A program made the translations under genes and the position numbers. Under the pieces are notes generated by a model, which ran no database searches, was not told the DNA's origin, and saw nothing but the letters and a program-made list of their open reading frames with translations. A stretch of 40,845 bases of DNA from IMG/VR virus record IMGVR_UViG_3300042475_003790, positions 1-40,845 of that record, one strand, 5' to 3'. Shown here one piece after another: positions 19,516 through 28,942 of the stretch. Source of the stretch: a virus. The first letter of the stretch is position 1. The number at the start of each line of letters is the position of its first letter.

Positions 19516-19543
19516 TTGCATTGCGCGCGGGAACGCTCATTCT
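19516..19543 (+). promoter_or_regulatory. Cassette promoter TTGCAT-N16-CATTCT
   Basis: -35 TTGCAT 19516-19521, 16-bp spacer, -10 CATTCT 19538-19543, then exactly 7 nt to the ATG at 19551. An A-rich tract (CGAAAAACACGAAAAAAG) lies just upstream of the -35, like an UP element. Same geometry as five other cassettes. Confidence 0.7.
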
Positions 19544-19550
19544 CTGGGGC

Positions 19551-19742
19551 ATGAAACTAACCCTTAACGATAAGACGGTGGCTGACTTCGAAGTGGAAAT
19601 CTCTGGTGACTGCGGCGACGATTCGGGCGTGTTGTGGGCTACGTGGGAAAACGGTGTCAAGCTGACGTACCGCGAGCTTGCCGAGTTCGAAGCTCTGTAC
19701 CTCGCGCGCCTGGTGTGGGGCGACCTGATGGACCGCCGCTGA
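19551..19742 (+). CDS. Small acidic cassette protein
   Basis: 63 residues, MKLTLNDKTVADFEVEISGD start, acidic, ending ARLVWGDLMDRR. The ATG at 19551 was preferred to an in-frame upstream ATG (19395) because the conserved promoter lies between them. There is no Shine-Dalgarno site; the predicted mRNA begins at or next to the AUG. No family recognised. Confidence 0.7.
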   Translation: MKLTLNDKTVADFEVEISGDCGDDSGVLWATWENGVKLTYRELAEFEALYLARLVWGDLMDRR

Positions 19743-19748
19743 TTTTTC

Positions 19749-19776
19749 TTGCAACTCTATCCGAAACCCTCACTCT
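19749..19776 (+). promoter_or_regulatory. Cassette promoter TTGCAA-N16-CACTCT
   Basis: -35 TTGCAA 19749-19754, -10 CACTCT 19771-19776, then 8 nt to the ATG at 19785. It directly follows the stop of the previous cassette gene, so the genes are transcribed separately. Confidence 0.65.
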
Positions 19777-19784
19777 CTCCTCTG

Positions 19785-20039
19785 ATGAATAACACTACCT
19801 CCCCCGAACTGTTCAAGCTCTCTATCGGTGACCGCGACTTTGTGCCGATGACCCTGGAAGCCGTCGAGCGTCAGCTTTACCTCGCTTGGCCCGATATCTG
19901 GTGCAAGAAGGAAGAGCGGATGTTGCAAATGAGTGACTTTCAAGAACTTCAAGAATTCTGGGACGAAAAGTCCAAGTATTGGGAAATCCTCAGCCCTTTC
20001 GACGGGCAAACCGCTTGGGCCTTTTTCAAGAAGGTGTAA
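19785..20039 (+). CDS. Small cassette protein, function unknown
   Basis: 84 residues, MNNTTSPELFKLSIGDRDFV start, Trp-rich and acidic (LYLAWPDIWCKKEERM; QTAWAFFKKV). The start is placed by the promoter; an upstream in-frame ATG at 19749 would overlap the -35. It is followed by the hairpin element at 20045-20078. No family recognised. Confidence 0.7.
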   Translation: MNNTTSPELFKLSIGDRDFVPMTLEAVERQLYLAWPDIWCKKEERMLQMSDFQELQEFWDEKSKYWEILSPFDGQTAWAFFKKV

Positions 20040-20044
20040 GGGAA

Positions 20045-20078
20045 TCCGACACCCCCTGTCGGAAAGCCTGACAGGGGG
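20045..20078 (+). terminator. Cassette 3' hairpin with two alternative stems
   Basis: TCCGACA (20045-20051) can pair with TGTCGGA (20057-20063), or CCCCCTGTC (20052-20060) with GACAGGGGG (20070-20078); the two stems exclude each other. The related element at 20897-20930 keeps the second stem through paired base changes. No T-run follows, so it may stabilise or process the 3' end rather than terminate. Confidence 0.55.
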
Positions 20079-20163
20079 GGCGGGGATTGTAAGTGAGACG
20101 CAATCTCACTCCCAGGCAGATGCTAGTGTCGGCAAACCTTACATAATCCCTTGTCAATACGTA

Positions 20164-20246
20164 GTTCCACGTAGAACATCATTTTTACAAATTTTTTACA
20201 ACCGGGCCTGGCCCGGACGTAAATGTAAAAAAAATGTAAAAAACAC
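20164..20246. repeat. Intergenic palindromic element, copy 1
   Basis: The order is: GTTCCACGTAGAAC near-palindrome (20164-20177), arm TTTTTACAAATTTTTTACAA (20182-20201), core CCGGGCCTGGCCCGG (20202-20216), and opposite arm TGTAAAAAAAATGTAAAAAA (20224-20243). Left and right arms are near-reverse complements, making an imperfect inverted repeat of about 62 bp. TACGTAGTTTTACCCATTGACAC follows. It belongs to the eight-copy family in 20.1-27.1 kb. Confidence 0.9.
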
Positions 20247-20360
20247 TAGCTACGTAGTTTTACCCATTGACACACTTTTTTGTGACGTTGGCACGAAGAT
20301 TGAACACGAAAACGAATGCAGTTGGCACGCATTTTGTACGCAAAAAAATCAAAAAATGTC

Positions 20361-27084: not shown

Positions 27085-27184
27085 GCCCAACTTAGGGGAC
27101 TATCCTTATTTATCCCTTATTTGTTATTATTTGACTTCTCTTTCGTTATTTATCTAATACTAACTCACTATTATTAGAAAGAAA

Positions 27185-27308
27185 CCCAGTCAGGTTAAGG
27201 CTTTACCCGAGCCTTGTTTTGCGTAATGGGCCATACACCATTGTTTGATTACTAACTATTTTGTTTTGTTTGGTGGGCTCGGCAGAGTGCCGTTCTAACC
27301 TGACTGGG
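27185..27308 (+). ncRNA. Structured RNA candidate (strand uncertain)
   Basis: A perfect 13-bp stem CCCAGTCAGGTTA (27185-27197) / TAACCTGACTGGG (27296-27308) closes about 98 nt. Inside are AGGCT/AGCCT (27198-27214), AATGG/CCATT (27225-27242) and CGGCA/TGCCG (27280-27292), giving a multi-branched form; CCGAGCC (27207-27213) can instead pair with GGCTCGG (27276-27282). It lies in the gap between convergent gene blocks and codes for no convincing protein. It could be an sRNA, a DNA recombination site or an RNA regulator. The lack of a T-run argues against a simple terminator. Confidence 0.6.
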
Positions 27309-27317
27309 AAAGTTATG

Positions 27318-27467
27318 TTATTCTGCGGCGCCCTCCTCTGCGAACTCAAACGCAGTGGCATCGCCATAGTGGGCGCAATCAGAAAGATACTTCAGTAAGA
27401 GGTTATATGCCTCTTCCTCAGAGGCGGCTACGATGTTATCAACGAACTTGATATTAAATGTTTTCAT
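27318..27467 (-). CDS. 49-residue small protein
   Basis: MKTFNIKFVDNIVAASEEEA start then YNLLLKYLSDCAHYGDATAF, acidic end. The opening resembles the small phage family of x-V-x-A-x-x-E-E-A-Y repeats. ATGA overlap with the upstream gene shows coupling. The stop is 10 nt from the RNA candidate. Confidence 0.65.
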   Translation of the reverse strand: MKTFNIKFVDNIVAASEEEAYNLLLKYLSDCAHYGDATAFEFAEEGAAE

Positions 27468-27670
27468 ACGATCTCAAACGGCAGTTCAGTTTGGTACTCC
27501 TTCCACTTGACCTCTGCACTATCCTTGTCTGTCGTCTCGACCGCAGGTTGCCCAGTCTCGGCATGAATAAACAAGATATCAAGGTCAATGATCTCCAGTT
27601 CGATGTCAACGTTAGAGCGCGCACCTTGAATGGCGCCGCCTTCAATCCATATAGCAACTTTTGGTTTCAT
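27464..27670 (-). CDS. Small acidic phage protein
   Basis: 68 residues, MKPKVAIWIEGGAIQGARSN start then IELEIIDLDILFIHAETGQP, a pattern seen in small phage proteins. The segment FIHAETGQPAV is encoded by DNA that is duplicated just upstream (27692-27722). No known function. Confidence 0.7.
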   Translation of the reverse strand: MKPKVAIWIEGGAIQGARSNVDIELEIIDLDILFIHAETGQPAVETTDKDSAEVKWKEYQTELPFEIV

Positions 27671-27722
27671 ATTAAATGGTGGGCCACCACTACCGCAGGT
27701 TGCCCAGTCTCGGTATGAATAA
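27540..27722. repeat. 31-bp direct repeat pair
   Basis: The segments at 27540-27570 and 27692-27722 (ACCGCAGGTTGCCCAGTC then TCGGNATGAATAA) are identical but for one base. The first is inside the 27464-27670 gene; the second is in the gap before it and could encode IHTETGQPAV without a start codon, so it looks like a remnant of a duplicated gene. Confidence 0.75.
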
Positions 27723-27727
27723 CAATA

Positions 27728-28657
27728 TCAACTCCTGACAACTTCAAGCACTTTCGAGCCTGCCGCCGTGAGCTTGCGCGACCCTTCAATCTTCATGAAA
27801 CCCTTTTGGAGTAGGAAGATTTCGGAATCACGCTGGAGCGAGGAACGGCTCATGCCAGTGATAGCACTGAGCATATTGAGCGAGCAGTCGCCACGATCCT
27901 TGAGCGCACGGAGAATCTGAATTTCGGTGTTGTTAAGTCCAGCGGGGTTGATGCCGATCTTGCTGCACAGGTCATCCCACTCCTTACAACCAAAATTCTT
28001 GCTTGCTTTGGTATCGCAGTACATCTCGATCTGCTTTGCACGCTGGACAGACGAGCGGGCATTGCCACGAACAGTAGTTGCGACTCGCTCCAGAGCTTCG
28101 CCCTTGAAGGAAACGTCAGGAAGAATCTTTTGGATAATCTTGCCAACGTCACCGTGAGAATAGGTCTGGAAGTCGATGTGAGTCAGGCGGTCCTTGAGCG
28201 GACCAAAGAGCTTGTCAGCTTCAGTAGTCGCAAGCATGAAAGTTTGCTTCTTGAAGTTGAACTCGTACAGCCCGTCGCGCCAGCTTACCTGTTTAACGTC
28301 CGTCCTCTCAGTATTGAAAGCAGTGAGGAGTACAGTCATCAAGTCCTTGGGCAAGGCATGGCACTCGTCCAGCAACACGGTGATCTCGTTGCCTTGGATG
28401 ACAGGGGCGAATACCTGTTCAAAGAACACTTGAGCATTCTTGATCGTACCGCAGTTGATTTCGAGGAAAGCCTTGGGAGCGCCGTCCTCGGCCTTGATAG
28501 CGCGAGCGGTCTCCTTGGCGAACTCGGTCTTGCCCATACCCTTGGCACCTGTCAGCAACAGGAAAGGAAAACGCTTGGTCTTCTCATGAGCGTCGAGATA
28601 GAAGTTGAGCTTCTTCTTGACATCTTCCTGACCAATTAGTTCAGCAAAACGATTCAT
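27728..28657 (-). CDS. RuvB-like AAA+ ATPase
   Basis: 309 residues. FAELIGQEDVKKKL (4-17) matches the RuvB opening. Walker A GAKGMGKT (37-44), Walker B LLDECHAL, sensor-1/arginine-finger region ATTEADKLFGPLKDRL, and sensor-2-like RGNARS follow, with a C-terminal winged helix (about 240-305, SLNMLSAITGMSRSSLQRDS). This is the full RuvB domain order. It would drive branch migration or clamp/helicase loading. No RuvA or RuvC is visible here. It lies 12 nt after the AT-hook gene, probably one operon from the 28915 promoter. Confidence 0.85.
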   Translation of the reverse strand: MNRFAELIGQEDVKKKLNFYLDAHEKTKRFPFLLLTGAKGMGKTEFAKETARAIKAEDGAPKAFLEINCGTIKNAQVFFEQVFAPVIQGNEITVLLDECHALPKDLMTVLLTAFNTERTDVKQVSWRDGLYEFNFKKQTFMLATTEADKLFGPLKDRLTHIDFQTYSHGDVGKIIQKILPDVSFKGEALERVATTVRGNARSSVQRAKQIEMYCDTKASKNFGCKEWDDLCSKIGINPAGLNNTEIQILRALKDRGDCSLNMLSAITGMSRSSLQRDSEIFLLQKGFMKIEGSRKLTAAGSKVLEVVRS

Positions 28658-28669
28658 GGTAATGTGTAG

Positions 28670-28906
28670 TTAGAGCTTGGTGATCTTGAACTCGACCTTG
28701 GGGGAAGAGTCGGAGTCATCGACCTCGGTGATAGAACGAGAGATCGGCTGGATAGCAAGCCCCATCTTCTGGAGCCAGACGCGCGACACAGGGATCGCGC
28801 TCTTGGTGCCAACGAACTGATCGAGGTCAGCGAGGCTGACGTTGACAAAGGAGGTGGAGCCGACAGGGCGTCCACGACCGCGCTTAACTGAGGTGGTGTT
28901 ATTCAT
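28670..28906 (-). CDS. AT-hook-like small protein
   Basis: 78 residues from ATG 28906. VKRGRGRPVGS (8-18) is an AT-hook (R-G-R-P core) that binds the minor groove of AT-rich DNA; the rest (SLADLDQFVGTKSAIPVSRV) may be a small HTH. The start was fixed by the promoter whose -10 is 8 nt away. Encoded before the RuvB-like ATPase, so it may recruit it to DNA. Confidence 0.72.
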   Translation of the reverse strand: MNNTTSVKRGRGRPVGSTSFVNVSLADLDQFVGTKSAIPVSRVWLQKMGLAIQPISRSITEVDDSDSSPKVEFKITKL

Positions 28907-28914
28907 ACGAGAGC

Positions 28915-28942
28915 ACTGTACCACAGATTTTGCCCCCGTCAA
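28915..28942 (-). promoter_or_regulatory. Promoter TTGACG-N16-TACAGT for AT-hook/RuvB operon
   Basis: Minus strand -35 TTGACG (28937-28942), 16-bp spacer, -10 TACAGT (28915-28920), 8 nt to the ATG at 28906. An A-tract (CAAAAAAAAGTGCGCAGAAA) is upstream. Same geometry as the plus-strand cassettes. Confidence 0.75.

Follow-up and report, generated by a model that had tools for sequence, protein, structure and literature searches.

Whether the small genes of one phage can be read, as a set, from promoters that place the transcription start on the start codon itself is the question raised by the IMG/VR virus record IMGVR_UViG_3300042475_003790, of which the whole 40,845-base stretch (the window) was analysed. 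An earlier note on this virus had described, before genes of a cassette in the middle of the window, a TTG -35 element, a 16-bp spacer and a -10 element of the YAYTCT type closely followed by the start codon, and had read this as one promoter design yielding leaderless mRNAs. The promoter geometry in the window is confirmed as a real observation, and the interpretation was partly supported. Very probably, the cassette genes are read from sigma70-type promoters with the transcription start at the start codon, which would give leaderless mRNAs.

A shared promoter geometry before the cassette genes

The pattern TTG-N19-YAYTCT was found exactly seven times in the window, always on the plus strand and between 19516 and 24343, and all seven plus-strand TTG-N16-YAYTCT sites of the earlier note were present. 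The motif search against shuffled controls that the note had proposed was run over the whole window, as was the strict count: the shuffled window gave a mean of 1.72 matches and a largest value of 6, and none of 100 shuffles reached the seven observed. When an ATG or GTG (RTG) 7-8 nt after the -10 element was added to the strict motif, six matches were found in the window, against a shuffle mean of 0.09 and a maximum of 2 (200 shuffles). The distance from the -10 element to the start codon was 7 nt at 19551, 20396, 21178, 22444 and 24351, and 8 nt at 19785. The claim of a 7-8 nt distance in six of the seven genes therefore stands if 24351, which starts with GTG, is included, and it fails at 21640 (22 nt). 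All seven -10 elements fit YANNNT, six of them beginning with CA and not TA.

The first two promoters are TTGCAT-N16-CATTCT (19516..19553, plus strand), before the ATG of gene 19551-19742 (63 aa), and TTGCAA-N16-CACTCT (19749..19787, plus strand), before the ATG of gene 19785-20039 (84 aa). For 19551, the 7-nt gap was also found in the related loci L006 and L007, and the homologues in L010 and L011 had a relaxed TTGCAA-N16-TATCTT with a gap of 6. For 19785, the gap was 8 in L006 and 9 in L007, and a second L006 homologue was without the motif. Gene 20396-20596 (ATG) is preceded by TTGTGC-N16-TATTCT (20361..20398, plus strand), and its homologues in L006 (TATTCT) and L007 (CACACT) both had gap 7, as did the L007 homologue (TTGCAA..CATTGT) of gene 21178-21456, whose own ATG follows TTGCAA-N16-CATTCT (21143..21180, plus strand). 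Before the ATG of gene 22444-22671 stands TTGTGA-N16-CATTCT (22409..22446, plus strand); its homologues in L006 and L007 had TATTCT at gap 7, and three of seven more distant rows were also flagged. Gene 24351-24650, a weak match to phrog_2267, follows TTGCAA-N16-CATTCT (24316..24353, plus strand); the homologues in L006 and L007 likewise had GTG at gap 7, and distant ones had an ATG start with another motif or none.

The A-tract reported before most promoters was borne out, with A/T content of 14-18 in the 20 bases before TTG at 19551, 20396, 21178 and 24351, and weaker values of 9-10 at 19785 and 22444; the stretch upstream of the 21590 site was judged by eye. On the minus strand, the promoter TTGACG-N16-TACAGT, 8 nt before the ATG of gene 28670-28906 (78 aa; 28904..28942), had been given with the correct sequence and spacing. 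This gene lies upstream of the clamp-loader/RuvB-like gene 27728-28657. The relaxed motif was flagged in 10 of the 12 homologue rows listed for it, down to 56% identity and with gaps of 6-9, the L012 row via a shifted reading.

A relaxed pattern (YANNNT, gap 6-8, ATG) occurred 12 times in the window, against a shuffle mean of 2.65 and a maximum of 8. Two further promoter-like sites lie on the minus strand, TTGACA-N16-TACTTT (36093..36130) before open reading frame (ORF) 35769-36095 and TTGTAA-N16-TATTAT (36324..36361) before ORF 36150-36326, each 7 nt from an ATG; the homologue search among related loci found none for either ORF. The design does not precede every cassette gene, as the earlier note would have it: genes 21835, 25571, 25922 and 26289 had no match in the window, and 24696 matched in relaxed form only. 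In the window, gene 26289 follows 25922 at 1 nt and has no promoter of its own; its homologues had a spacer-16, gap-7 promoter of their own in five of eight rows.

Recurrence of the geometry in near and far relatives

Relatives were collected as viral contigs found by DUF932 and AAA-ATPase searches, at 100 to 42% protein identity; the far group, with a DUF932 protein ~45% identical, was not used in defining the motif. The RTG-gap tally, the far consensus, the start-codon tally and one tally of the GTGTAAA(A)TA element discussed below were de-duplicated, and elsewhere kin loci share sites. Across the 17 near records, the strict pattern, with RTG placed at 7 nt, was counted 29 times (12 records had it), and 0 times when reversed. 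The 15 far records, taken whole, held the far-type pattern 300 times versus 31 reversed; related records share some sites in these whole-record counts, which were not de-duplicated. Among 69 distinct near contexts (the window plus 26 near loci), RTG stood at 7 nt in 32, and each other gap accounted for at most 3 up to 29 nt and at most 5 up to 37 nt. The base before the start codon was always C or T in those 32 sites, and most of the 20 columns before TTG were mainly A.

We then applied a grid test over spacers of 14-20 and gaps of 3-13 before ATG, in which nothing was fitted apart from TTG and a hexamer of the form NANNNT. The near set (the window plus eight loci, two of them, L016 and L058, from the 70%-identity group) peaked at spacer 16, with 27, 49 and 24 at gaps 6, 7 and 8; all other cells held 3 to 22, including a lesser value of 22 at spacer 17, gap 7. 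The far set (20 loci) peaked at spacer 17, gap 6, with 312, other cells holding 13 to 103. With YANNNT as the -10 element and 22 far loci, 280 sites fell at the peak, compared with a background mean of 17.3 (standard deviation 9.0; seven cells around the peak excluded), and shuffling of these loci gave a mean of 14.8 and a maximum of 22 (40 shuffles). The locus shuffles, the YANNNT grid and the comparison of the base at -1 given below covered 22 far and six near loci, the window apart or added.

Each of 14 far loci had 12 to 28 ORFs (at least 25 aa) with a spacer of 16-17 and a gap of 6-7, some by chance; they lay on both strands, with a median length of 64-81 aa. The shared geometry proposed earlier recurs before many gene families at two relatedness levels, and the promoter-at-start-codon design, as predicted from sequence, is clade-wide in these uncultured phages known from metagenomes. 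Segment identities (-35, 0.93; spacer, 0.65; -10, 0.80) came from nine motif-chosen rows, some near-identical, a choice that favours hexamers, and they were not used as evidence.

Position of the start codon and Shine-Dalgarno use

The modal form of the near and far groups alike has TTG 35 nt upstream of the start codon and so puts the first base of that codon at the usual +1. A TANNNT-like -10 element at leaderless distance was found at six of the seven plus-strand window sites, at 28906 and in the far main peak at gap 6. The base at -1 was a pyrimidine at 272 of 280 far motif sites versus 500 of 846 other ORFs, and at 63 of 75 near motif sites versus 211 of 424, a bias that would be expected at an initiator. 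Among distinct far-type sites, the start was occupied by ATG 266 times, by GTG 7, TTG 15 and CTG 11 times, and ATA (84), ATT (37) and AAG (29) also occurred.

A Shine-Dalgarno-like 5-mer preceded 1 of 64 near motif genes and 0 of 160 far ones, compared with 18 of 174 near and 21 of 150 far comparison ORFs of at least 100 aa, a set that includes spurious ORFs (14 far and six near loci plus the window). This comparison was used in place of a simple gene caller, which picked spurious long ORFs in the cassette region. AAAGGA lay 4-12 nt before a start codon opening at least 60 aa at eight window positions, of which 3792, 4441 and 8024 start whole ORFs in the terminase-gene region. The earlier statement that virion genes use AAAGGA instead is correct for these three and does not hold at 14864, which has a second element at leaderless spacing. 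Shine-Dalgarno use may be a trait of genes inside operons.

Controls, and observations that weigh against leaderless promoters

The single geometry with its predicted transcription start at the start codon, as claimed for the window, stands far above the shuffled, reversed and other-phage controls. In a near-type scan of the collection, 53 stretches matched, versus 32 with the start codon shifted by 3 nt, and several matches in one stretch were found with the true pattern only. The far-type scans, true and shifted, gave at least 120 rows each; among the matches listed, several per stretch were again found with the true pattern only. Two sets of other viral stretches, both picked for holding the start-shifted pattern and not a random sample, were placed on the grid, and the smaller (31 stretches, 0.29 Mb) held 3 at the far-type cell and 14 at spacer 16, gap 7. 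Two named phages with distant DUF932 proteins showed no excess (Salinibacter phage, 0 versus 2 reversed; Microcoleus phage, 1 versus 4).

Several observations weigh against leaderless sigma70-type promoters. The larger of these two sets (118 stretches, 0.96 Mb) gave a mild peak at the far-type cell, 65 where most cells held 20-60. In 20 cell genomes of one family, the pattern was in 1.3- to 6-fold excess over its reverse, mostly 2-3-fold, so the reversed-pattern control is biased. The far grid has secondary peaks at spacer 19, gap 4 (68), spacer 17, gap 7 (62) and spacer 16, gap 7 (57), and the 70%-identity group gave a weak peak. At 21640-21792, the promoter TTGACC-N16-CATTCT (21590..21642, plus strand) is an exception: the ATG lies 22 nt past the -10 element, GTA occupies the expected spot, and a leader of ~15 nt is predicted. 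Its homologues keep a gap of 22-23 nt in L006 and L007 and have gap 7 in L010, L011, L012 and L050. Among other homologues, those of 28906 in L060 and L015 and three of the eight rows for 26289 were not flagged, and the motif was missing from further rows, for example of 21835, 22444, 24351 and the GP88 gene. Shine-Dalgarno-like 5-mers are scarce in comparison ORFs too (10-14%), so that their absence from motif genes is weak evidence. Finally, YAYTCT is a poor sigma70 -10 element, and a sigma70 consensus scan (9 of 12 positions of TTGACA/TATAAT) passed 28906 alone among the eight promoters.

Which sigma factor reads the promoters

The grid peaks have the sigma70 promoter frame, with a TTG -35 element, a spacer of 16-18 bp and a -10 element whose second base is A and whose sixth is T, although TATAAT itself occurred 0 times in the near-set peak cells. 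Far-group promoters resemble ordinary sigma70 sites (TTGACT/TTGCAA, 17 bp, TANNTT; 29 far loci). The TTG element, the spacer and the A-tract suggest a sigma70-type holoenzyme, most simply that of the host.

It is rather unlikely, but deserves weight, that a phage-encoded sigma factor reads promoters of the same leaderless geometry, the 16-bp spacer and the off-consensus CATTCT being its signature. The window encodes two sigma-like proteins. One (11900..12655, minus strand; 251 aa), lying between virion-region genes, has a family match to Sigma70_r2. Comparable open frames (about 240-276 aa) with such a match are found again among both near and far records; Sigma70_r2 matched in 22 of the 24 records searched, 20 of them over the curated cut-off. 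The other, an ECF-like (extracytoplasmic function) sigma factor (32930..33523, minus strand), matches Sigma70_r2 and r4_2. The seven cassette promoters missed by the consensus scan would suit such a factor, as would the near-set peak at spacer 16 only, bar the lesser value at spacer 17. Against it, the motif was present in 12 of 17 near records and close relatives of the ECF-like gene in just 2 of 17, the two nearest, and region-4 matches over the cut-off were found in the window and those two records only; this patchiness makes the ECF-like gene a poor explanation of a clade-wide motif, bearing in mind that records may be fragments. The sigma70-like appearance of the far-group promoters also speaks against a phage sigma, and the GTGTAAA(A)TA class, with no visible -35 element, offers it an alternative target. 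Excluding a phage sigma on the patchy ECF-like gene was considered and dropped, since the second Sigma70_r2 protein is widespread. T7-type RNA polymerase matched in 0 of 24 records, which is uninformative, as no control genome matched either. The 11900-12655 protein carries a cysteine-rich insert that, by eye, may bind zinc.

Short leaders and non-promoter explanations

A more improbable alternative keeps the promoters and moves the RNA start a few bases off the start codon, or has the RNA processed, leaving a very short leader. The near-set gap, which varies between 6, 7 and 8 nt, is in keeping with it, and so is the 15-nt leader predicted for 21640. Leaders in Lactococcus are described in the available text of PMC10986495 as <5 nt or ~40 nt, with none between 4 and 14 nt, and the predicted leader lies just outside that gap. 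However, pyrimidines dominate between the -10 element and the start at many near sites, where the start codon therefore supplies the first suitably placed purine, and the far main peak lies at a single gap, 6.

It is very unlikely that the block is no promoter and serves recombination, cassette exchange or the binding of a regulator. It does recur before unrelated small genes, in a region with other repeats; but the spacer sequence varies while TTG, YANNNT, the spacer length and the distance to the start are shared, and an exchange site would not require the preference for ATG at the far start position (266 sites), where A/T-rich triplets occur too. It is of negligible probability that CT-rich and A-tract sequence produced the pattern by chance or through its composition: the cassette region is unlike most of the window in its composition, but the shuffled, reversed, shifted-gap and other-phage controls contradict this reading.

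Proposed expression of the cassette genes

With sigma70-type promoters at the start codon, each cassette gene would have its own promoter, usually made up of an A-rich stretch, a TTG -35 element, a 16-bp spacer and a YANNNT -10 element (here YAYTCT). RNA polymerase of the host, with its housekeeping sigma as the probable reader, would start on the first base of the start codon (A or G) or 1-2 bases from it. This would yield leaderless mRNAs, whose translation would dispense with a Shine-Dalgarno leader and presumably proceed by 70S-type leaderless initiation, and the cassette genes may be expressed early. With promoter and ORF united in a self-contained block of a few hundred bp, small genes could be swapped or reoriented without a ribosome-binding site.

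A second element, before a virion-region gene

The element GTGTAAA(A)TA was found in the window at 14871-14880 (minus), 39712-39721 (plus), 2571-2580 (minus) and 10851-10860 (minus), with a start codon close after it at 14864 and 39726. In the first case (14862..14880, minus strand), GTGTAAAATA is followed after 6 nt by the ATG of ORF 14052-14864 (270 aa), and in the second (39712..39728, plus strand), GTGTAAAATA is followed after 4 nt by the ATG of ORF 39726-39989. Among 33 related records, the element followed by RTG within a few bases occurred 34 times (18 + 16), versus 2 for the reversed pattern. It was present in 8 of the 13 rows listed for homologues of 14864, three of them of identical sequence. 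By eye, no -35 element is conserved at these sites. The product of 14864 had no family match, and its virion-region label rests on position.

We regard GTGTAAA(A)TA as a candidate late promoter, leaderless in its spacing, and would guess that a phage sigma reads it. T4-type late promoters consist of a -10-only element read with a phage sigma. GTGTAAA(A)TA might be alike, although its sequence differs and the phage sigma is here a guess. The contrast between cassette and virion genes is not clean, as 14864, in the terminase-gene region too, has a leaderless-spaced second element. A clade-wide leaderless plan, with a host-type promoter for each small gene and the GTGTAAA(A)TA class, perhaps with its own sigma, for virion-region genes, is possible but on the whole doubtful. 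If it were true, these phages would depend on 70S-type initiation and might be insensitive to loss of Shine-Dalgarno-dependent initiation. A clade in which many unrelated small genes share a promoter at the start codon would in any case lend itself to the study of leaderless translation during infection; the design gives a sequence rule for telling which start codons of tiny phage genes are the true ones, and it predicts hosts that translate leaderless mRNA well.

Comparison with known leaderless systems

The earlier note had called a phage with leaderless early genes unusual. Leaderless phage mRNAs have experimental precedents, and the geometry is a trait of one clade and not of one odd phage. 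In telomere phage PY54, rapid amplification of cDNA ends gave one mRNA species each for cI and cro, starting at the AUG (PMC4488713). In the available text of that paper, the likeness is that cro has a strong promoter immediately ahead of its start codon, adjoined by an A/T-rich, UP-like sequence; the difference is that PY54 concerns two regulator genes of one switch, and here many unrelated small genes are involved. Lambda is named as the first leaderless case in PMC3160421, and its cI in PMC9031893; it is alike as a phage mRNA without a 5' untranslated region, but it is a single gene. In the accessible parts of these sources, leaderless phage mRNAs with mapped 5' ends were regulator genes of one switch.

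Nearly a third of D. radiodurans genes have TANNNT ~6-7 bp ahead of the ORF (PMC12340547). Deinococcus-Thermus differs in being a cellular lineage, with a -10 element in the 20 bp before ORFs and, in the available text of that paper, no fixed -35 element, spacer or A-tract reported. TA-led genes, in which TANNNT ~12 bp before the start codon is taken as a leaderless signal, exceed 20% in Actinobacteria and Deinococcus-Thermus (PMC3160421), in a survey described as covering cellular genomes, unlike the phage clade considered here. A passing remark in PMC5312081 that phage transcripts are often leaderless lowers the novelty, as far as its available text goes. The novelty seems to lie in the scale and the shared design within one uncultured phage clade. 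No description of this clade-wide design was found among the matches listed from the open literature on leaderless and phage topics (subscription papers and preprints lie outside it), and among the matches listed for the GTGTAAATA string, none was on phage promoters by title.

Host leads and other features of the window

Megablast of window positions 10001-35000 and of locus L029 against named phages gave nothing, and the DUF932 proteins matched named phages at 25-29% identity only. The single match in a cell genome was L062, a contig of the Halobacteriovorax metagenome-assembled genome (MAG) SP2999 (4.9 Mb) with phage-like ORFs by eye. It holds DUF932, a GP88-like ORF (by eye) and an excess of far-type sites, 11 at spacer 17, gap 6. 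L062 is possibly misbinned or derived from an infection and is a weak host lead; the 20 cell genomes described above, which are of this MAG's family (1.3- to 6-fold excess), neither support nor exclude the host. WhiB is a marker of actinobacteria and their phages, and it had no match in any of the 28 related records searched. The product of 25922-26287 matches the mycobacteriophage L5 gp82 family PF25735, and that of 23377-24072 matches the GP88 family PF17338.

Between cassette genes lies a repeated palindrome, CCGGGCC(T/A)GGCCCGG, flanked on one side or on both by TTTTTACA / TGTAAAAA blocks. Its copies are at 20182-20241, 20961-20997, 21480-21539, 22215-22249, 23221-23257, 24170-24229, 25815-25850 and 27027-27062, and its T/A polarity does not seem to be that of an intrinsic terminator. 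A terminator-like hairpin follows the DUF932 gene (25479..25506, plus strand), and similar G+C-rich hairpins are at 21780, 22189, 25790 and 27002. The region has 22 terminator-like sites, mildly above chance (shuffle mean 14.2, standard deviation 4.2). The G+C content is about 0.48-0.53 in the cassette region (19000-28000), about 0.39-0.44 in most of the rest and 0.45-0.51 at 2-5 kb. Five tRNA genes (Leu-TAA, Ile-TAT, Lys-TTT, Met-CAT and Arg-TCT) lie in 32865-38000.

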